NCBI GenBank assembly: GCA_949361645.1
Contig: OX442415.1
Span: 27,750,847 to 27,814,846, forward strand
Reading direction: 5' to 3'
DNA length: 64,000 nucleotides
Source: Spongilla lacustris
Lineage: Eukaryota > Porifera > Demospongiae > Spongillida > Spongillidae
Shown here: positions 14,162 to 63,200 of the stretch, piece by piece
Layout of the letters: every line of letters begins with the position of its first letter
How positions within the stretch are numbered: the first letter of the stretch is position 1
Translations under genes and position numbers: made by a program
Notes under the pieces: generated by a model
Seen by the model: only the letters and a program-made list of their open reading frames with translations
Database searches by the model: none
Told to the model about the DNA's origin: nothing

Positions 14162-14605
14162 TACTTCCGTAGCAACGACAGTAGGTGGAAAGAGGTTTAT
14201 TTACGAGAAGATGTCGTGGGTTTTTTTACCCAAAGGGCAACCTACACGTGCAGTAAGGACTTTGCTACTCGACAACACTAGTTTCTAGCAATGATACCTT
14301 GGCGAACACGTGCCACACTGCCAAAAAGACACTGGGTCTAAACGGGTATGGTCAACAGTGCTTATGTTTTCTAAGAATTGCTCTTATATTTTTGGACAAG
14401 AAACGCCTCGAACATAGTAAAGGGTTTGATCTTGTGTTTTCAGTCGTCTATACGTGACTACGCTACTTCGTTTGTCCAATTTCGTCGATTGAATACGGCG
14501 CCATTTTGAGGTGTCTATTATAAAATGATTATGTACGTACGCGAGGTGGATACGATAACGATGACGTTGAATAGTGCTAGAGAGTTATGTACTCTTCTTT
14601 TTTCA

Positions 14606-15086
14606 GGTGTTGGTACTGCAGCTGACCGTCGTCATGGACTCAAACGACAGGCTGATTGTTTCTGACTGGGGTAACCATAGGATACAGTTCCTTATGACCA
14701 ATGGTGATTGGCTGTCGACCATCGATGGTAATGGCATTGGAGATCACTGTTTTATTCATCCATGGGGTCTTGCATTAGACCCTCAAGGAAACATCCATGT
14801 TGCAGCCTATGGTTCTAACAGTATAAAAGTATTCACTGCTGATGGCACCTTTGTCAGGCTGTATGGCAATCCAATCGGTCCTAAGGGAATAGCCATTGAC
14901 AACGAGAGCTACAGCCTTGTCAGTGAGGGAGATGGAGATTGCCTCTCAATCTTCGATCCAGAAGGAAAGAAGATCCACACAGTGGGGAATCTAAAGAACC
15001 CCAAGGGAATTGCCGTTGATCCAAAGAATTATAGTGTGTTTGTCGCTGTAATGGGTAGTAATGCTGTATTGCGGTATTTAATCTAG
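14606..15086 (+). CDS. NHL-repeat protein, 3' terminal exon (TRIM-NHL-like)
   Basis: After a good acceptor (CTTCTTTTTTCAG, exon from 14606) the frame runs about 160 codons to TAG at 15086. It contains at least three NHL blades: DSNDRLIVSDWGNHRIQFL (residues ~9-27), HPWGLALDPQGNIHVAAYGSN (~52-72), and GPKGIAIDNESYSLVSEGDGDCL with NPKGIAVDPKNYSVFVA. These are the beta-propeller repeats found at the C-terminus of TRIM2/3/71-like E3 ligases and related proteins, used for RNA or protein binding. No RING, B-box or coiled-coil exon is visible in the preceding 600 bp, so this is either the last exon of a gene with distant 5' exons or a solitary duplicated exon. Confidence 0.85.
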
Positions 15087-19323: not shown

Positions 19324-21542
19324 CTAAAGCAACAACGAATTGTAAAAGATACTCCCAGTTATTGCAGCCACATATATCCAAAGTTGACTGCTAAACTTGC
19401 TAGTTGCACCACTTGTACTAATTGTACTAAAGAGGTCAACATTACCGCACTTTGCCATATTGGCTGCATTTGCTGTGGGTTTCATATTCGGCATTTCATT
19501 GATGAGAACAGCCATGCCCTCCATTTGATGGGGCTCTATGTGACAGTGGAGAAACCAATAGCCTGGATTGTTGGCAATGATCCGAACACGCACATACCCT
19601 CCAGCAGGAAGAATGATGGTGTCTTTGCGAATGGTGTACACTGTAATAGGCTTTAGTGGTGGTACATTATTGATCCAACCTGGATTGGTGCAGCTAGGAT
19701 CAACACAACCAACATACGGATTGGGTGCTGTAACAAATCCAGTTGAGCCATTATACGTTCCATATCCAATATCAACTACGTGAAAGCTGTGGCCATGGAG
19801 ATGAACAGGATGGCCTGAACCATCCATTCCAACGGATCCACTTCCCACAGCACTGAACACAAACTCAACATTTGCGGAGCTGGGGATGTCTATCGTGTGT
19901 GTGCAAATGCATGATGTGGTGCTACAGCTAACGCTCCCCAGGTCGCATTTCTCGTTTTCGTTCAAATCCTGCGTTTGAGGTGGGGTGCTTGGTAGCTTGA
20001 AGTTTCTACCATTGATGGAACTGGAGCTGCCATCGCCTAAAAAGCCAAAGTTGAAAAAGAATGTTTTAGATGGCTGCTGGCTAGGTAGCTCGTTAGATGG
20101 TGTTGGGTTGAGCAGTGTCTGGTCAATGGGCTGCATGCACGTACTCTGATGAAATGCACAGTTCACACAGCTGCCCTGCATAAATGGACAGTTGAATGTT
20201 ATACAGTTGCCGTACTGTGTGCAGGACAGATTGTACGACTGTGCTATACCAGCATACATGTTCGATGATGGCTGGTCAGTGCCGTAGTGAAGGATGGCTT
20301 CAGCAATGTGGTTCAAGCTTTTATATGGTGGCGATCCTGCAATATTGACCTCCAGTGTTTCAGCTTTGATCAGATAATCTGTTTTCACTCCCGGTTCAGT
20401 TGGACTTTTAGGTTTCAATGCAAAATCATAACGCTCTCCCCCATGTATGATGATGTAATCCACATCAACAGGATTGATCAAGTATCCATCCATAGCAATG
20501 ACTGTCAGCCTGTGATTGGAGATGGAGAACTTGTATGCGTACAGGCTTTGTGCTCCTATCAATCTAAACCGATAGCGAACATCAACAGGACCACTTTGGT
20601 AGGCTATGTTGAATACACTGAGCCTTGCTTGATTGTAGGACACATTCCAATAACGCCCCAATCCGTTTATCACACCAGACCAGTATGGGATCGGGCCAAC
20701 TTCACTGCTATCAGCTGCATATGTCCGCCAGTTATTGCCTGCCGTGGGGACCTCACCAATTGATGTGTTAGGGAAGAACCCCAGTGATCCTTCCAGTTGA
20801 GTAAAAAGGTCCTCTGAAGCCAGCTGCTGCCAATCCAACAGAGACAGGATTTGCTCTGTGATACTGTTTAGTTGAAATGAGAAGCTAGGCTGCACCTTCT
20901 CTTTCACAATCAGAGCTCCAAAGAGGCCGTCTGTTCTCTGTGTGCCACTGTGAGAGTGGTACCAGAATGTGCCAGATGGGGAAGCATTGAAAGCATAAGT
21001 GAAAGATGTGCCTGGGGTGATGGGACAGTGGGAAATCCCCCCGACGCCGTCCATCCAGGGAGTGTTCTTCTGGTGCATGCCATGCCAATGGATGGATGTG
21101 GTATCACTACTTAGCATGTTGGTGACCTTTACAACCACCGTTTGACCTTCGTAGACGATGAGGTTAGGACCTGGCATCAAGCCATTTATCGTGAGAACAG
21201 AACGGAAGGTTTTACCATCAACTGTGATTGGTACACTACAACCACGGCTTGCAAACATTTCGTTGGTAATCACAGCACATTGCGCGCGGGTCCCCGGAAG
21301 ATTAGCGTTAATAAGTTTTCCATTAGTGTCAAAGTAGTATGTTCCTCCCATATTGCCAAGTCTGTAATCCAGAAGATCTATCATGTTGTTATCCACCTTG
21401 TAGCTAGAAAATGTCTGGATTTGCTCAATTATGAGGTTGAAGGTACAAGTCTTGTTCGAAGCCTCACACTCACAATTTTTTTGCTGGAAGCCGCAGTTCT
21501 GCTGTCCAGCCACCAGAGTTAGTACTGCAATGTACCAACCAC
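19324..21542 (-). CDS. Laccase-like multicopper oxidase, terminal exon
   Basis: The minus strand encodes a three-cupredoxin secreted oxidase. The exon begins at 21542 after the acceptor TTATCCTTACAG and enters in phase 1. The first visible residues (GWYIAVLTLVAG) are the end of a signal peptide whose ATG lies in an unseen exon. Counting from the GTG codon at 21513, the copper motifs are all present: HWHG (142-145), WYHSHSG (184-190), HPVHLHGHSF (568-577), HCHIEPHQMEGM (656-667). Met is the residue 10 after the Cys ligand, the axial position, as in low-potential laccases. A Cys-rich insert (about 415-455) separates domains 2 and 3. The C-terminus ends in a short hydrophobic stretch that could be a GPI signal or membrane anchor. 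It should oxidise phenols with reduction of O2 to water, outside the cell. The frame is intact to TAG at 19324. Sponge laccases are known, for example in Suberites. Confidence 0.93.
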
Positions 21543-22515
21543 CTGTAAGGATAAATTGGATAACGTAGGGCAGCTGTAACTTAATGTTTGTTCATGGAAT
21601 ACTGACAAGTGAAATCTCAACTACATAGCACATGCCCACAACATACATGTACACACTCATTATGGAGCACTACAAACACCCAATTTGACAACGTTCATAA
21701 TACATGTTCCTTATCACACACAAAAAATAGGACATACATTCAATCCAAGCACCTTACACACCCTCCATGGTTCCATGTAGGTCAGTGGAGCCCTTTTTAG
21801 GGTTAGTTATACTGCCTCTGAAGTTTGGCATTAAGCAGAGGTTAATAGTCTGATGTAAATGGGCATCACTTGGGTACATGTCATAGCAATGTTGGAGACA
21901 TTATTAAGGTGTCAAATGGCACAACAAACCCAGCCAAGTGGGTCAGTTGAGCCATATGTTGTCTTAAGCTAAAGTGATGTGCATACGCTAGCAAGAGTGG
22001 GCCAAGGCCTTCCTGTCTCTTGTCCAATTGCCAAGCATTGTCAAATTATTCATCAAAGTAAATTCATACACTAATGCACGACATTTTTCCAATGAGAGCC
22101 CATTGGCAAGTGTTTTAACGTGATTCACAAAGTCATTCTCCATTATGAGAATCAATAAATTGTATTAATGCCATACGATTGCAGTTAAAGCATATGGCTC
22201 AACTAACTAACTCACCCAAGAATATTATCATTGTGTAGAAATTATGAGTTTCACACTGATCTTATTTTTGAATATTACATTCTAATGAATACTAAAACAA
22301 AATCCTTATGTAGGACAAAACGCTAGTCATTACACTTTTAATGTCAATAAATGCAAGTATCTTTCTTTGTAGAGCTAAAAAAGAGGGTGGCTCAACTAAC
22401 CCAGTGGCTCAACTCAGTAACCCAGTGTCTCAACTAATTAACCCTACAGTGCTTATATGACAAAGAGTTATAATACAAAGTATACTTGCATGTTTACTTA
22501 AGTTTTTAAAAGTGT
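21543..22515. other. Upstream intron of laccase / non-coding
   Basis: Expected to hold the first laccase intron and perhaps exon 1 (signal-peptide start); I could not identify that exon. A CTCAACTAACCCAGTGG-type short tandem repeat lies at 22388-22445. Confidence 0.45.
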
Positions 22516-44575: not shown

Positions 44576-46465
44576 TGCCGTTTAGTGGTAGCATGCATTG
44601 TACATGATATATATATAGCAGCATTATATTTTCCAACACACAATAGCTGCATGGCAAATTATAGTGCATTACAAATAGAACACTGTATTTAAAATGTATT
44701 ATAAAACTGCTAGACATGATAGCACATGTGGTCAGCAGGTTGTATACATGACATTATGATTGGGCATGATCAGGCTAGAAAGCCAAGTGAGCTTCAGGTG
44801 GCATTGCAGTGGTAGGCCCCATCATTAAAGTGCAAATTAACTTTGAGCAGAAACGTATAGGGAACCATAACTTCAGTTTTCTGCTTTTAAATTCTTCTAC
44901 CTTGCCAAATACTGTCATTTTCAGAAAAGGTGTCCCAGCCTTGTCTGATGTCTATACAGCTCCTCACCTGCCTCACTTGTTCTCATGTCTTGAGATAGAG
45001 GAATCTAATCACAACTTGACCCCACAATCACAGCAATACATTTACAATGTCATGGCACAATATATAGACTAAACATGAGACATTGTGCAGGTAACAACAT
45101 TGTGGTGCACATTCGCTCATCTCCTCAGAGCTGTGGCCTTGACTTCACCTTTCTGCATAGGCTTTAAGAGCCATTGTGTCTGACATTGCCCCCCCCCCCC
45201 CCCCCAGTTCACATCAGCAGAATTCAAGGAGTTTTGTGCAGGTAACAACATTGCGGTGCACATTCGCTCGTCTCTTTATCATCCCCAAACAAATGTGCTA
45301 GCAGAGTGGAAACACAACGTTCAAGGGGACATCTGAAGTATCCTTTTGGAAGTGGTGGGTCAGCAGCAAAGTCTGCGAGGAAACATCTTAAAAATAATCA
45401 GGAGCTTGCATAGGTATGCACTCCCTTGGCTATTGAAGAGTATGTGTGAGAAGAGGCCTTTGGTACAGCTGCTGGCCTCCACATTTGCTATCGCCGATAT
45501 CCAAACAGCAGCTAGAACCATATATTTATCCGTGTATTGTAATAATTCTTGACAAGCATACTTAAAAACACATTCAATTTGGCAAGTGCATAACTGTGTA
45601 TGGCAGGGGAATACGGACCATACCTCTTGCACATGCATGGTGACGTAACGGAATTTTGTACTTATAATGTATTCATGAGGTGACTGGGGTCAACATAAGG
45701 CGACTATAAAACCCCGCTACACTGAATGCAGGCACTGAAGTGACATTGTGCCTACCAAGGAAAACGATTTTCTGCTTGGCTTCACGTATAAACCATGTTC
45801 CCGAGAAAAAATATTATCTCCGTGATGTTGTTCTCAGTTAGTACTCGAGAATGTTCGAGGTGAGTACTGTTGGAATTGGAAAAATCGCATTATGCTGAAG
45901 TCCAATCCGTTGGAAGGTCTAAGGCGCAGCGATAATTTGGTCATATAGAACGAACCAAATAAAATATCGAATAAAAATAATAACAGTAGGCTCAACCTGA
46001 GGGCGAATGCGACAGTGATCCTTTCCAGGTGGCTCCCATCTTAAAATTTAATTAACTGTAGTGTGATTTAAGTGTTGTGTGTATTACATATTCTGTTCAT
46101 GTACATGTATAAATATTATTTTATTTAATAAAAATAATAATACATATTCATTTGAATTTGTATTCATAATAATAATAAGAAGAAGAAGAAGTAGATATTA
46201 GTTCAGAGTACATGTATCTTAGTATTTAGTTTTTGTATTGTGTTCCTCATATGCAAGTGTACACACCATGAATTTTTGCATAATTTAAAAAAAGAAAAAT
46301 AAATGCGCTGCATTAAATAGCGTATAGACATATTATACAAACCAGACCAATAGAAAATGCTGCAAAATTCTTAATTGTGGTGTTTTTTTATTGGTTTGTT
46401 TGTTTGTACACATGTACACACTAACAGCTCAGATTGTCGGAGTCTATTGGAATGGTGTGAAACAG
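44576..46465. other. Non-coding stretch
   Basis: No gene recognised. GTGCAGGTAACAACATTG.G and GTGCACATTCGCTC occur twice (45086-45125 and 45236-45275), a short direct duplication around a poly-C run (45190-45206). 45355-45400 resembles 40525-40585. AAG/AAT microsatellites lie at 46130-46195. Confidence 0.45.
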
Positions 46466-49400
46466 TCTGGTGACCTTTTCTGTAGTCCAATCAAGAGTGA
46501 CTGCCATATATGGATCACAGTTCCCTCTGGTGTGCGAGGGTGTAGCAGGTGGACAATGGTATGGACCAAATGGAGTCCTGTACCCAGCAGCATTCCCTAT
46601 AACCACTCCTGGAGGTTATGGTCAACTAAATAGACCAGAAGGAGTAGAGTTGTATCGAGGAACTCCTGATGACTTCCCATCTGGTGTTCAGTGTTGTACC
46701 AATACCTCCTTCACACTCTGTGTTGGAATGTACAATGATCTCACACTAGCATCTTCAGTAAACCTAACTGCAACAGACACTACTAATTATGGTCTCTCTG
46801 TAGCAGCCACATGTAAGTACAGAGGATAGTACTCAGTTCGCATATATATGTATTTTACAGAAGTGTTGACTTTCCCATAGATGGTCCTAACATCACAGGA
46901 GGTGTCCAGTTTCAGCTGTTGACACCTACAAATGTTGATCCACCAGTGTTCCAGTTGACCTGCACCAGCACTAAATTTAGTTCTCCTCCTACAACTGTGC
47001 AATGGACCTTTGATGGAAGTCCAGTCAATGTTGGTAATAATCAAATAGTCACAGGTGGACCCACATCTACTTACAACAACACCCTGACTGTGACTGGGAG
47101 ATCACCTGGGATGTACACATGCAATGTCACCACTACTCGCTCACCAGTGTGTGGAGTTACAGGATTTACTCTTAATCCAAGATCCACTGCTTCATCCCTC
47201 ACTGTACCAGGTAAGTACATAAGTACTTCTACACAGCTCCTCCTGACCTACCCACTGGTGTCACTGCTGTGCAGTCTGGTCCCACATCTGTCAGTGTCTC
47301 TTGGACTGCACCAACCTCAGGTGGTCCAGTGAGCAGATATGATATCTACTATGTGGCTAATGGAGTCCCAAGTACATATGGTGGTTCAACCACTTCAACC
47401 TCTTACATGTATGTCCTAACCAACCTTCAAGTTGGGGTTCAGTACATCATCTCTGTCATAGCTGTGGGGACCTATCTGCCATCACAGAGTGCAGCTGCAA
47501 CTTTAACATTAATAGTAAACCTATCCCCCATCAGTTCCAGCCAAGGTTAGAGACCCCTTTCTTCATAATACTAAATTTGTAAAACTCGTTGTATACCATA
47601 TGTCAGGTACCACTATAACAGGTACCTCGGTGAATAGTATGACTGGTACTCTAGTACACAGTAAGACTGGTACCCCAGTATATATAATGGGTACCCTAGT
47701 ATATACTATGACTGGTACCCCAGTATATACCATGACTGGTACCTCAGACTCCAAATCTACCTCATATTCTGGAGGGGTGCTTGCAGTAGCTCTTATTGCT
47801 GAGTTTGTGGTGATTGCTATTGGCATTGCCATTGTGGGCATAGTGGTGGTATCTTTCAAAAGGAGATGGAAAGTGGGAACGTTTATGTGCATATGGATGT
47901 TAAGCATATGCATATGTGAGCATATGTGTGCCAAATTTGAGTCAATCCACATATCTTGCTTAGTGGTGCGATTTCTATGAAGCAATGTGAGGCATACATT
48001 ACAATAAGAAACAGTGGTCAAAATTTTTCATCCACGGAATTAAACGATGTTCCACCTTCTGATAACTGGTAAGCACATATGCCTGCCATACATTGTATCT
48101 AAGCCAAGGCACCCATCTTACTCAGTGTTGTGATTTCCATGACACCACATGCATCTTGTGTTGATTTGAAAACTTGTGGACAAATTTCAGGCAGTGAATC
48201 AAATGGTGTTCTTTATGATAAATGGTATTTAAAATATAACCATTCATGCCTGTATCCCATTTGAGCCAATGCATTTATCTTACACAGCGGTGGGACTTCC
48301 ATTAAACCATGTGGGTCATATGTTGAAATGAAAACTGATAGATGGGATTCAACCACTGGATCAAAGGGAATACCATCTGACAACTGGTATTTGTAATCTA
48401 ACCACTTACATCTGACATATCATGTTTTTTTACTTAGTGGTACAACTTCAATGACACCATGTGGATCATATGTTGAAATGAAAAGCAATGGACAGGTCTT
48501 CTATAGTAATTTTCCAACCACTGGATCAAAAGGCATTCCATCAGAGATCTGGTATATGTGTACTTAAAGTGTAACCACATATGCCTGAGCTGATGCATTT
48601 ATATATCTTATACTCAGTGGTACAATTTCCATGATGCCATGTGGGTCATACGTTGAAATGAAAACTGGCAGACGTGATTCGACCACTGCATCAAAAGATA
48701 ACCCACCTGAGATCTGGTAGTGAAAGTCTAACCATGCCATATTAGTGCTAATGTGTATATCATATATATCATACTCAGTGGTGCAATTTCTATGAAGCCA
48801 TGTGGGTCATATGTTGAAATGAAAAGTATAAGACGGGATTCAATGACTGAGATCTGGTATTTTTACGAAGTCTTCTGTCATATATGAATTAATACATGTA
48901 TTTTTAAATCTGGAAGTGGTGCAGTTCCCAAGAAACCCAGTGGCTTGTGCATTGAAATGAAAGCTGGTAGGCGAGATTCTGCCACTACAACATCAAAAGA
49001 CATTCCTTCTGACATCAGGGGTTCAAAGTACATGTCCAATACATGTACCTACCATATTTGAGCCAATGAATTTATATTACTCAGTGGTGCAATTTCTATG
49101 AAGCCATATGGGTCATATGTTGAAATGAAAACTATAAGAAAAGATTCGATGACTGAGAGCTGGTATTTTTTTTAAATCTTCTGTCATGTTTGAATTAATA
49201 CATGTATCTTTTAATCAGTGGTGCAATTCCCAAGAAACCAAGTGGTTTGTGTGTCGAAATGAAAACTGGTAGACGTGATTCGACCACTACATCAAAAGAC
49301 GTTCCTTCTGACATCAGGTATTCAAAGCACATGTATAACACATATATACCTACCATATCTGAGACAATGAATTTATCTTACACAGTGGTGCGATTTCTAT

Positions 49401-49506
49401 GAAGCCATGTGGGTCTTACGTTGAAATGAAAACTAGAGGGCAGGCCTGTTGTGAAGTGGAAGAACCTGCACACCATGAGATAAGAACTAATGGAAAGAAC
49501 TACTAA
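46466..49506 (+). CDS. Ig/FN3 single-pass receptor with a tandem-exon docking tail
   Basis: Extracellular exons: A 46466?-46812 (Ig-like, VTAIYGSQFPLVCEG), B 46881-47210 (Ig: LTCTSTKFS...VQWTFDG...GMYTCNVT), C 47237-47545 (FN3: PPDLPTGVTAV...VSWTAPTSGGPVSRYDIYY), D 47607-47872 or 47880 (Thr-rich stalk of TGTPVYTM-type repeats, then TM GGVLAVALIAEFVVIAIGIA.., then basic KRRWK). Introns A-B, B-C and C-D are all phase 1 with canonical sites. The cytoplasmic part is ten mini-exons: 47964-48068, 48126-48224, 48288-48386, 48438-48551, 48618-48716, 48779-48856, 48917-49018, 49085-49162, 49219-49317, 49386-49506 (TAA). Each begins at codon position 3 and encodes a GAISMKPCGSYVEMK-like module. The D donor that fits phase 2 (AAC/GTTTAT) is weak, so that junction is uncertain. 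The signal peptide and first exons are not found. It probably transduces extracellular contact to SH2-domain proteins; ligand unknown. Confidence 0.75.
47964..49506 (+). repeat. Array of ten duplicated mini-exons (YVEM cassettes)
   Basis: Lengths of the nine internal exons are 105, 99, 99, 114, 99, 78, 102, 78 and 99 nt, all multiples of 3, and all have the same phase. Tyr motifs: exon 1 YITI; 3, 4, 5, 6, 8 and 10 YVEM; exons 2, 7 and 9 have Cys in place of Tyr (CVDL, CIEM, CVEM). RRDS occurs in 5, 6, 7 and 9 (RWDS in 3, RKDS in 8). The donor of exon 7 reads CAG/GGGTTC, so it is probably dead or shifted. Exons 6 and 8, and 7 and 9, are closest pairs, indicating duplication of a two-exon unit. 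Confidence 0.75.
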
Positions 49507-57263: not shown

Positions 57264-60200
57264 TTGAACACGGACAGGGCACCTAAAGACCACACCCTTG
57301 TGCCTCCTCCCGTGGTGAATGTAGGACTGCAGCTCTTTCACAGGCGAGCACACTCAGCAGACCACAGGTCACCAGCCCCAGAACACCTGCACAGTGGTGA
57401 GGTATCCCCTAGCAACCAAGAGAGGTCCACCACTGTGCCTCTGGGGGAGATGACGATGACTCCTCAGCTTACAAACACACTGGAACATATTGTTTCGCAG
57501 CTGGACATCTTGACTGAGGTTTGGAAGATTACATGTTCTTGTACAGTTATGATTCACTGCCAGGCTTAATCTCTATTGTCCTGAATGTCCACCCGGTGGG
57601 TACAATTGGACACTCGGGTGGACAGCAAGAAAGTTTTTGCCGTTTGGTCATAGAAGGGACCTAGTTGCATTTAACAGTACTGGCTCACAGAACAAGTCTT
57701 TTCAGGATCGGGCTGAGATAAGTAAGGCTTAAATCCTTTCGGTACTCTTAAAATGACCCGTGCTAGCAGAACGTCACTCTGACCAATTCGCATGGAGCGT
57801 AATGGATAGGTCCGTTAGCACGGGTCATTTTAAGAGTACCGAAAGGATTTAAGCCTTACTTATCTCTGCCCAACCCTGAAAAGACTTGTTCTGTAAGCCA
57901 GTACCGTTAAATGGAACTAGAACGGCAAAAGCTTTTTTTGCTGTCCATCCGGGTGTCCAATTGTACCCCCGGGTGGACATCCAGGACAATAGACATTAAT
58001 GCCAACATTTGAAATTAGAAGCTCAAGAATGCAGAACATTAATCACATTCATTGGCTATTACAATTACTGAGGAACTTCTGTATGTTTTAAAATTTTTTT
58101 ACATGAGCTCGTCTTAATGTTACAAGGTTTCCACTAATGTTGTTAATTTTCTGCATTTTGTATGTACACATGTAGTTGATACTCTGTCACATACATGTAA
58201 CTCAGGTGATCTTATTATAAGCAAAGTTTTTTATACATCATGACATCTATATGGGGAAAGAAGGGGGGGGGGGGGTTGGGTTGATACCCCTTACATAATC
58301 ACTGTACATGTACAAGTAGCACTGTTGGACAAATCTTACAATATGTTTACTCGTATCTTCATGTACAATGGATGATGAATCAATTTTTGGTCACAAACAG
58401 TCAAGGGAACATTGTCTAGATTTAACCCCTGGGGGAGGGAGGGGGAGGTGAGAGTCGGTCAATATTGCATATGTAAATATTTGTACACATCTATACCCTT
58501 AAAATTGCTCCATTCACTTCATGTGTGCTCATAAATGAACTTAACCATTCGCATAGATTTTTTTTGTGTGCACAATCAGCATGTCTTTGCACATCTTATG
58601 ACTTAGTACACTCATTATTAAGGCAGCTGCCATTAAGATTAGACAGGTGCAATGACTGGTCATATTTGCCCAGACATTCCGTATAAAAATCCGGTTTATT
58701 TATAGATTATTGTATTGTATTATATTTCACTGTGACTGTGCTGATCTAATTATACGCATATCCTGTAAAGTAATGTTTAATATGGAGAGTGTTATAATGG
58801 AGCACATTAGTAGGTTGTCAGCACTGCCTTTTAGGTGTATTGTTCAGTAGTCATGGTTGCAGGCCTAGACTTGGTGGTTTATCACAGCCACAAAGCGGAT
58901 TGTGATTATAGTATTTCTACAGGGGTTGTGATTAAATTTCATTGATAGTGCCAAGGTGAGGGGGGGTCCCCCCCCCTTGTCCAATATTGTAGAGGATTAA
59001 CAGCACCTAAGGGCAATAAACTAGGTGGAAGACACCATCCCCCAAGGTCATTGACCGCATCACGAATATGCTCTTTTTTTTTTTCAGGAGTGTGTGTGGG
59101 TAAAAACGTTAGGGGATCTTTGTCAAAAAGTTTCACAATTTTTTAGATTGCACTTTAGCTCACACTACACTCAGCGTAGTTAAGGACAGGGTCCAATTAT
59201 TTTTACTATTAATTCATACGGCAAGATGGACGGTTTTGAACAATTTACTGCTCTCTTTGTATTTGTTTTCTCACAGGCATATAGTATGGTAAGACTCAGA
59301 ATTCATCGTAGAATGCTATGGAAAGCTTGCTTTTTTTGCTGCTCGATGGGATCTTGAACGGCAATGAAATGAACTGCGCAGTGTCTTTTGAGAAGAAGGG
59401 ACGATAGGCGGAACCTACTTCCTCAACATTAGGGCTTCATTTTTTCCATGAACATACAGCGTCCCATGTGCTTCGAAAATATCTGTTCCGGAACTCTTGT
59501 AGCATTTTGTGTGAAAAGATATACACTGATATACATGCCATTGTGTAGCGCTCTGATTATAAATATTTATTAGCATTGGTAAATATAGGGGTACTGCCTT
59601 CCGAAGGTGGAAACTGTATAGTAAAACCATTTGCCCAATGCTCTAGGATAAAATAAGACTATGAAACTCACATTTTGGTCTTCGCTTTTTATAAACCGTT
59701 ACCACTGTCCCTTCAATGCGGCCACTTCTATTTACGAAATTGAAACTATTACGCGCGGTTATTACGCGGGATACAGCTGCCGCTACTAACCTAACAGCAT
59801 GCATATCACAATCAGTCAGAACTTTCAACGGTAAGCATCGAGGTATATTAGATATGCACAAATAAGTTAAGACACAACAGTGACAGCTGCTAAAAAGATA
59901 CACCCTACCTTACTACCATAAAAGGCTTTGTATGCGGTAATTTCCCTTGTATGAGTACAAAACCATAAGAATCTTAATCAAAACAACATGACATCACATA
60001 CAATATTTTTTAACAATACAGATCAGAATGCAAATGCTACCAATTACTCTAAGAGTAAACTGTGGTTTTGCAAGAGTTGGATTAGTTCGGAGTAGTGAGG
60101 AGGACTTCAAGAGCACATTTCAAGCACCACTCAAACTGGAAGACAACTACTTTCAAAGGAGGTCAGACAGAAGGACGTGCAGTAGCTATGAGACCCATGT

Positions 60201-63200
60201 GAAAGCAATGAGGAGTATGTTCTCCAAGCGGTGGCATCCTCAATCTGGAAAAAGTGAATATGAGATTACATTTGCAGTTGATGCTTGGAAGTCGTTAACC
60301 CCACAAGAAAAACAACACCATTCCTTGGAAATATGCAAACAGTGTTACACTGACTTTTACAACGTTCAGTCCATCTTCCCAGCCAAGCCAATTTACATGG
60401 CAACATGTAATATAGTCACAATAAACAAACTTGTAGAAATGAAAGAGAAGTCATTTATCGAAGTCGCTGTCCAGTCACTAAATGAACACAACACAAGGCA
60501 CACCTCTGTGTACAACACAAGGCACACCTCTGTGTACAAACACAAGGCACACCTCTGTGTACAAACGCAAGGCACACCTCTGTGTACAAACACAAGGCAC
60601 ACCTCTGTGTACAAACACAAGGCACACCTCTGTGTACAAACACAAGGCACACCTGCATGTGTACAAACGCAAGGCACACCTCTGTGTACAAACAAAAGGC
60701 ACACCTCTGTGTACAAACACAAGGCACACCTCTGTGTACAAACACAAGGCACACCTCTGTGTACAAACACAAGGCACACCTCTGTGTACAAACACAAGGC
60801 ACACCTCTGTGTACAAACACAAGGCACACCTCTGTGTACAAACACAAGGCACACCTCTGTGTACAAACACAAGGCACACCTCTGTGTACAAACACAAGGC
60901 ACACCTCTGTGTACAAACACAAGGCACACCTCTGTGTACAAACGCAAGGCACACCTGCATGTGTACAAACGCAAGGCACACCTCTGTGTACAAACACAAG
61001 GCACACCTCTGTGTACAAACACAAGGCACACCTCTGTGTACAAACGCAAGGCACACCTGCATGTGTACAAACGCAAGGCACACCTCTGTGTACAAACGCA
61101 AGGCACACCTCTGTGTACAAACTCAAGGCACACCTCTGTGTACAAACACAAGGCACACCTCTGTGTACAAACACAAGGCACACCTCTGTGTACAAACACA
61201 AGGCACACCTCTGTGTACAAACACAAGACACACCTCTGTGTACAAACACAAGGCACACCTCTGTGTACAAACACATGGCACACCTCTGTGTACAAACACA
61301 TGGCACACCTCTGTGTACAAACACAAGGCACACCTCTGTGTACAAACACAAGGCACACCTCTGTGTACAAACACCTCTGTGTACAAACACAAGTCACACC
61401 TTTGCATGTACACACACAAGGCACACCCACACACAAGCCACACCTCTGCATGTACACACACAAGGCACACCCACACACAAGCCACACCTCTGCATGTACA
61501 CACACACAAGGCACACCTCTGTAATGTGTACAAACACAAGGCACACACACCTCTGTACACGCACCTTTGTGAACAAAGACATCTCCCCTGTGCACACTAG
61601 AGATCAACTGAAATCCTCTAGACAGACCAAGTACATGTAGCACATGATATTTATAACAAAGGACAAATGAGCATACATTCTGTATCACTATAACATATGT
61701 ATTATTATGAGTGCTATAGCTGAACGGATAGGGCACGCTACATATTTGTCACACATCAAACCACACATACAGTTAGCTGTAATCACTGTTCATTCTTGCT
61801 ACATGTATACAACCATACATGCTGCACTCTCATATATAGACACTACAGTACAAATCAGTATAAATCAATCACACACGCACGCACGCTATCACCCTGCCTA
61901 CATGTGTTACCACTTTTTTTTGGCTGCTACCAGGTATTTACTAGTAGTTGGGGGATGATGCGCGCTAGTTAGAAATACCGGTGGTAGAGGGAACAATATA
62001 TTTCAAATTCCAGTGTCAGAAAAATGGGGACTTGCCAAGTACAATAACTTAAACTTCACACTACATTAGTAAACACTGCTAACCTTTCACAAGTTAGGCG
62101 CCACGATCCAGTTCAACCCGCTCATGTTGCAAAGGTGATCCAACAGCATGAAGGCATAGAACAAAACTCTCGTAATAGCTCGATTCCTATGTACACGCGT
62201 AACTAGCTCGATTCCTATGTACACGCGTAACTAGCTCGATTCCTATGTACACGCGTAACTAGCTCGATTCCTATGTACACGCGTAACTAGCTCGATTCCT
62301 ATGTACACGCGTAACTAGCTCGATTCCTATGTACACGCGTAACTAGCTCGATTCCTATGTACACGCGTAACTAGCTCGATTCCTATGTACACGCGTAACT
62401 AGCTCGATTCCTATGTACACGCGTAACTAGCTCGATTCCTATGTACACGCGTAACTTCACTAGGCCTACAACTATTATATACCGTAATTCCATAGTGACG
62501 TATCATTGTACGTCACGTTACGCGCGCGCCGCGTTAGGAAACCTACAATTTTTAGACCCTGTCCTTAACTCCGCTGAGCAGTAGCACAATGATCGAATCA
62601 TATTGTTTATTGTGTTCATACATGTAGGTGTTCATACATGTAGGTGTTCATACATGTAGGTGTTCATACATGTAGGTGTTCATACATGTAGGTGTACATG
62701 TAGGTGTACATGTAGGTGTTCATACATGTAGGTGTTCATACATGTAGGTGTCCATACATGTAGGTGTTCATACATGTAGGTGTTCATACATGTAGGTGTT
62801 CATACATGTAGGTGTACATGTAGGTGTTCATACATGTAGGTGTCCAATTCGGGCAAAGATAGGGTTTTTAACTCAAAATGCTGCTGAACAATAACATACA
62901 GGGTATTCCTCGGAAAATTAACCTTAATTGTTGTAACAACACAAGAAGACATGTTTTTAAAGGTTAATTAATATTGATAAAAGTCTCAAGACCCTATCCA
63001 ACATTATTAATGTTAATAAATGTAGGATGGGTGTTTAGTTAAATATTTAATTTTGTTTAGAACTTATTCAAAATTGAAATCTTGATTTTTTAATTTTTGC
63101 ATTGTACTTGATTTAGAGGCCATTGTATCTTGATTTAGTGGTTTGAATTTATTAATAAATTTGGCAAGTTATTATTAAAATTCAAGAAAATTTTGGAGCT

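Follow-up and report, generated by a model that had tools for sequence, protein, structure and literature searches.

A tandem array of YVEM-bearing tail exons in a sponge Ig/FN3 receptor family, with predicted PI3K recruitment and a likely pseudogene copy

The receptor gene and its mini-exon array

The window analyzed here is a 64,000-nucleotide stretch of the Spongilla lacustris genome (contig C1, positions 27750847 to 27814846); genome searches covered 248.6 Mb in 51 contigs. On the plus strand of the window lies a copy of a receptor gene with immunoglobulin (Ig)-like and fibronectin type III (FN3) exons. The first ectodomain exon seen (46428 to 46812), delimited by alignment to a sister copy near C1 27.943 Mb and by three-frame translation, encodes a family-specific N-terminal domain. 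It is followed by an Ig-like exon of phase 1-1 with a canonical donor (46881 to 47210), a 26-nt remnant of the Ig-FN3 intron (47211 to 47236), a 309-nt FN3 exon (47237 to 47545), and an exon encoding stalk repeats and the transmembrane (TM) segment and ending in KRR (47607 to 47868). In a Pfam search, the protein of the 27.943-Mb sister matched fn3 over the cut-off, with Ig families (Ig_3 and Ig_2) just below it. Peroxidase and mucin-like matches on the same protein, both below the cut-off, were taken as chance. The sister has a single hydrophobic segment (19-residue mean hydropathy, 2.88), followed by KRR, and no second comparable segment was found in the scored stretch of its tail; the predicted topology places the YVEM motifs described below on the inner side of the membrane. 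Just before the TM segment (47612 to 47747), the stalk is encoded by a 24-nt tandem repeat with a TGTPVYTM-like product, and the stalk/TM exon is 27 nt longer in the 27.943-Mb copy, so that stalk length differs between the sisters too.

Downstream of the TM exon, reading of the sequence reveals an array of ten mini-exons (e1 to e10) on the plus strand at 47964 to 49506. Their lengths are, in order, 105, 99, 99, 114, 99, 78, 102, 78, 99, and 121 nt, the last measured up to the stop codon. YVEM is present in 6/10 mini-exons: e3 (48288 to 48386), e4 (48438 to 48551), e5 (48618 to 48716), e6 (48779 to 48856), e8 (49085 to 49162), and e10 (49386 to 49506). YITI is found only in e1 (47964 to 48068; GAISMKQCEAYITIRNSGQNFSSTELNDVPPSDN). 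Cys replaces the Tyr of the motif in e2 (48126 to 48224; SCVDLK), e7 (48917 to 49018; LCIEM), and e9 (49219 to 49317; LCVEM), leaving three of the ten modules without Tyr. RRDS accompanies the motif in four mini-exons (e5, e6, e7, and e9), and e8 has RKDS instead. A second Tyr in e4, in a YSNF context, aligns with the second Tyr of the single-tail relatives described below and is also present in the 27.943-Mb sister; we take it to be a possible Grb2-type site by the YxN rule. In the terminal mini-exon e10, YVEM is followed by a degenerate remnant of an ancestral tail end (HHEIRTNGKNY, then stop), where the copy at 27.926 Mb retains AYHEIRTNGKNCYE.

All ten mini-exons open with a single base that completes a split codon, in most cases for Cys, and e1 to e9 are multiples of 3 nt in one phase. 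The coordinates of the array, the motif counts (six YVEM, one YITI, and four RRDS), and the shared phase of e1 to e9 had all been given in a sequence-only reading of the window and proved exact when reread. The introns between the mini-exons measure 51 to 68 nt. Acceptors are AG in 10/10 cases, and the donors after e1 to e9 are GT in 8/9 cases, the exception being CAG/gggttc after e7, where the sister has GT in place of GG. The earlier description of the splice sites as canonical bar one is therefore correct within the array, but it passed over the donor of the TM exon (47869 to 47870), which reads GA.

The array belongs to a cluster on C1. The 15-nt pattern TAYGTNGARATGAAR has 32 matches in the genome, 17 of them in the C1 cluster and all 17 in the forward orientation, while the remaining 15 lie elsewhere. 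Since the reversed control pattern gives 17 matches, about as many as the 15 noncluster matches of the true pattern, the clustering on C1 exceeds chance. When the consensus module was searched against the genome, each of the 25 matches at E ≤ 10 fell on C1, in the interval from 27.657 to 27.963 Mb. Places on C13 that carry the same 15-nt pattern were dropped as candidate family members, because the module search put 25/25 matches on C1.

Sister copies and lesions of the window copy

The window array has two sister arrays, both no more than 145 kb away. The sister gene at C1:27.941 to 27.945 Mb, 144 kb away, has 14 modelled exons (Ig, FN3, TM, and ten mini-exons), an open reading of 746 residues, and GT at 13/13 internal donors; its first exon probably begins upstream of the modelled start. 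Seven of its mini-exons contain YVEM, at a spacing of 33 to 60 residues, and five contain RRDS. In the 27.926-Mb copy, the array comprises seven mini-exons; one of these is frameshifted, and its acceptor is broken. Stop-bearing remnants are located at C1 27.658, 27.947, and 27.962 Mb. Mini-exon copy number differs between the genes: e5 is present three times in the 27.943-Mb gene, two of the copies being 97% identical including the intron, and the e6-e7 pair is present twice in the window, as copies 87% identical. The window e6-e7 pair is nearest to the pair in the 27.943-Mb gene (93.5%), and the e8-e9 pair is nearest to the pair in the 27.926-Mb copy (91.9%). On these identities, an old duplication of the pair followed by reciprocal loss would fit as well as a gain specific to the window.

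Set against the sister genes, the window copy carries four lesions, which the sequence-only reading overlooked or passed over. Alignment with the 27.943-Mb sister and three-frame translation reveal an 11-nt deletion at about 46460/46461, which throws the first ectodomain exon out of frame. The Ig-FN3 intron is 26 nt long in the window versus 49 nt in the 27.943-Mb sister; judged by the 51- to 68-nt introns between the window mini-exons, this is far outside the local range, and retention of the 26 nt would shift the frame and lead to an early stop. The TM exon donor is ATG/gaaagt in the window and GTG/gtaagt in both sister copies. The fourth lesion is the GG donor after e7. With these four lesions against it, the idea of a plainly intact window copy was discarded; the copy is probably a pseudogene and probably yields no product. 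We grade this as probable rather than certain because bypasses can be drawn: an in-frame detour around the TM donor, using a donor at AAA/GTGGGA with an acceptor inside e1, is conceivable, and the 309-nt FN3 exon can be skipped without a change of frame.

Selection on the mini-exons was gauged by comparing the window with the 27.943-Mb sister. Eight of the ten window mini-exons have a one-to-one partner there, and over these eight the values are 0.032 for dN and 0.113 for dS, a dN/dS of 0.29; changes affect 18.5 of 176.5 synonymous sites and 19.5 of 615.5 nonsynonymous sites (Fisher p, 0.0004), and in the introns 26/445 sites differ. This ratio supports the reading frame and suggests past constraint. 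Further backing for the frame first assigned to the mini-exons comes from the sister, whose reading is open for 746 residues, and from nine Ephydatia muelleri gene models in which the module is joined to the TM segment in that same frame. Comparisons with the 27.926-Mb copy gave dN/dS values of 0.55 and 0.74, with no significant constraint (Fisher p, 0.20 and 0.47). Motif cores and the rest of the mini-exons changed alike (5/80 versus 14/185 residues); when the cores were split, by a division chosen post hoc, those with Tyr had changed at 1/60 residues and those without at 4/20 (Fisher p, 0.013).

An alternative explanation for these data could be that the array is a drifting by-product of neutral exon gain and loss, with the window copy dead and the multiplicity of YVEM motifs doing nothing that one site would not do. 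In favor of drift are the four window lesions, the broken exon in the 27.926-Mb copy, the stop-bearing remnants at 27.658, 27.947, and 27.962 Mb, the loss of Tyr from three of ten window modules, and the lack of significant constraint relative to the 27.926-Mb copy. It sits poorly with the 27.943-Mb copy, in which all ten mini-exons are open and have canonical sites, with the dN/dS of 0.29 between that copy and the window, and with the smaller change in Tyr-bearing than in Tyr-less cores. We consider it unlikely that drift accounts for the array.

Receptor relatives and origin of the cassette

With the TM exon as the query, relatives were found on C12, C24, and C3, and further searches added others on C6 and in other parts of C1. 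We read 19 relative tails, leaving out five weak TM-type places (two on C9 and one each on C10, C13, and C21). Sixteen of the 19 have one module, and the other three, all on C24, have two tandem modules inside one exon. These two-module tail exons (C24:5837449, 5866216, and 5807031; AAYGEI...YDVV...CEAYGEV...YEE) represent a second, within-exon route to motif multiplication. Most of the relatives read have one terminal tail exon, B, with two Tyr spaced by 6 to 8 residues beyond the first motif, mostly as YGEI-x7-YEVV. The first-site Tyr is kept in 18/19 tails; at +3, 14 tails have I, 4 have M (one of these being Tyr-less), and 1 has L. Most C24 tails have YGEI-RTGGQDC-YEVV, and in C3 tails the first motif is YMEM or YTEM and the second is YELV, YEVV, or YETV.

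Sequence homology places the gene in the Ig/FN3/TM receptor family typified by the E. muelleri Em0011 group. A protein search with the receptor gave 33 matches, 32 of which are labelled E. muelleri. The ectodomains of the closest E. muelleri proteins are approximately 70 to 79% identical, and the TM segment and module are common to both species. Nine of the 36 proteins retrieved in the E. muelleri set end in the module, joined to the TM segment through a linker ending in PSDNC. In 8/33 matches, all E. muelleri, a tyrosine phosphatase domain is instead joined to this ectodomain family. The S. lacustris genome itself yielded at least 117 tyrosine phosphatase domain matches, many on C24, with 150 of 320 candidates scored; together with the phosphatase-tailed E. 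muelleri proteins, these domains suggest that the family may include paired receptors. With the array part as a protein query, none of 4,238 candidates reached E ≤ 0.01, and no E. muelleri array protein was found. The E. muelleri Ig/FN3 receptors are true relatives, with single-module or phosphatase tails in place of the array seen in the S. lacustris C1 cluster.

The relatives point to a source for the repeated cassette. C24 relatives encode the linker in an exon of its own, the 45-nt exon A (DTFAAGSKKVPSDN), upstream of the docking exon B. In DNA comparisons, exon B resembled each of e1, e3, e4, and e5 more closely than any shuffled sequence did (0/2,000 shuffles each), and the end of exon B resembled the latter half of the terminal exon in the 27.926-Mb copy (0/2,000). 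Mini-exon e3 is composite: its first half resembles B, and its last third, at the 3' end, resembles A (0/2,000 shuffles each), although its score of 38 against B is barely above that of the best shuffle, 37. Exon A also resembled e1 (2/2,000 shuffles); its similarity to e4 and e5 is not significant by DNA (59/2,000 and 358/2,000), though the protein ends are similar. In the C1 cluster, a stopless exon B is joined within one exon to A-like sequence, in 7 to 10 copies, the number differing by sister. The simplest account would be that the cassette arose from exon B, which lost its stop by fusion to a copy of A and was then multiplied. An origin by B-A fusion and tandem duplication explains why the phase is equal on both sides of the cassette. 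The six YVEM motifs are copies of one ancestor and not six independent observations.

The paired Tyr of the relatives raise the possibility that the repeated Tyr of the array dock another SH2 protein, of the Src family or Syk type, as the ITAM-like single tails might, and that Met at +3 is incidental. Like ITAM receptors, the single tails of the sponges have two Tyr motifs 6 to 8 residues apart: the relaxed pattern Yxx[LIVM]-x6-8-Yxx[LIVM] is present in 17/19 tails of the S. lacustris genome and in 8/9 E. muelleri tails. The genome also encodes an SH2-kinase and, at C24:2.994 to 2.996 Mb, a Syk/ZAP-70-type tandem SH2 whose best solved match is SYK over both SH2 domains. However, the last residue of the sponge tails is V, and the strict ITAM consensus Yxx[LI]-x6-8-Yxx[LI] fails in 28/28 of them (0/19 here and 0/9 in E. 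muelleri) and is found in neither array. The ITIM pattern [SIVL]xYxx[IVL] was likewise found in 0/28 single tails and in neither array. The array cassettes moreover lack a paired second Tyr, apart from the changed one in e4, and successive array Tyr are separated by some 33 to 60 residues instead of 6 to 8. Each Tyr-bearing YVEM cassette has V and M at positions +1 and +3, respectively, in agreement with the preference of p85 SH2 domains for pY-[VM]-x-M, and the C3 relatives, independently, also have M at +3. Docking of a different SH2 protein by the array is, in our judgment, quite improbable.

Predicted PI3K docking and comparison with known systems

We return to PI3-kinase (PI3K) as the candidate partner of the array. 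Several YxxM motifs stand in one tail, six in the window copy and seven in the 27.943-Mb sister. The genome contains both p85-type and p110-type domains of a class IA PI3K. A p85-type nSH2 was found at two loci, C24:5.398 and 5.178 Mb, whose best solved matches are PIK3R1/PIK3R2 (E values of 1e-35 and 5e-41), the next family scoring approximately 1e-8 or weaker. The p110 p85-binding domain was over the cut-off at three places in the genome. A genome search with the Pfam p85 inter-SH2 (iSH2) model gave no match; this coiled coil is split by exons, and the control was uninformative. The predicted recruitment of PI3K by a YVEM tail is well motivated. The original proposal of an Ig/FN3 receptor with a YVEM array as its tail gains from the family membership, the domains, and the PI3K subunits, but it cannot be carried over to the window copy, which probably makes no product. 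On balance, we find it fairly probable that the array consists of tandem copies of a tail exon that would recruit PI3K through pYVEM, with the window copy a likely pseudogene and the 27.943-Mb sister the likely functional gene.

In the mechanism that we propose, ligand binding by the ectodomain would lead a tyrosine kinase to phosphorylate the tail, p85 SH2 domains would dock on pYVEM and recruit p110 to the membrane, and PI3K output would scale with the number of YVEM sites. RRxS is a site for basophilic kinases, and the RRDS beside YVEM may, by this motif, provide a second input. Skipping of a mini-exon would keep the frame, making isoforms possible; since equal phase is an automatic consequence of duplication, it does not constitute independent evidence for regulated skipping.

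Several known systems share elements of this arrangement. In the kinase insert of CSF1R (Fms), RRDS and YVEM lie close together, and YVEM is a PI3K site; there, a single YVEM site lies inside a receptor tyrosine kinase, and we claim no relatedness with the sponge array. IRS proteins have several YxxM p85 sites. ErbB3 has seven consensus p85 sites (PMC8555822). In ErbB3 and IRS, as in the array, multiple YxxM motifs are gathered in a single cytoplasmic stretch, and ErbB3 is the nearest known system in working mode. The sponge array differs from both in that its sites are near-identical, lie one per tandem exon in a kinase-less Ig/FN3 receptor, and vary in copy number between sister genes. The tail of PECAM-1 is encoded by eight alternatively spliced exons, and SHP-2 binding is lost from variants that lack exon 14 (PMC5664058). 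PECAM-1, an Ig-family protein, is the nearest known case of a receptor whose tail is encoded by exons subject to alternative splicing; its tail exons are not mutual copies and carry ITIMs, whereas the sponge array exons are copies and have no ITIM. In the open-licence literature, we found no sponge array of this kind, nor reports of YVEM together with CSF1R/RRDS, of YVEM together with p85-SH2, or of exon duplication together with phosphotyrosine-SH2.

Taken across the family, these tails allow a broader and decidedly tentative proposal, about which we are more doubtful than hopeful: freshwater sponges may combine one Ig/FN3 ectodomain family with swappable tails (ITAM-like of Syk type, phosphatase, or an expandable PI3K array), such that gain and loss of tail exons would set the type and strength of the signal, by a paired-receptor principle resembling that of the immune receptors of vertebrates but evolved within a sponge gene cluster. 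If the PI3K reading is true, the number of docking sites changes between sister genes by whole-exon duplication, and the switch of docking class becomes traceable because the two-Tyr, ITAM-like source exon survives in relatives. Multi-site PI3K and ITAM-like tails would then occur in one early-animal receptor family, beside phosphatase-tailed relatives, and the origin of such receptor wiring would become testable in a freshwater sponge.

Other features of the window were noted by the way. NHL-repeat-like frames of similar sequence were seen by eye at window positions 14571 to 15086 and near C1 27.960 Mb; lying by the window gene and by the tail remnant at 27.962 Mb, they hint that a larger block may have been duplicated. 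On the minus strand at 19324 to 21591, a 755-residue open frame looks, by eye, like a multicopper oxidase (HWHG, HPVHLHGHSF, and WFLHCHIE). GC skew is extreme at 36 to 38 kb of the window, and a long minisatellite at 59992 to 61748 leaves several frames open on both strands, with TQGTPLC-like repeats.
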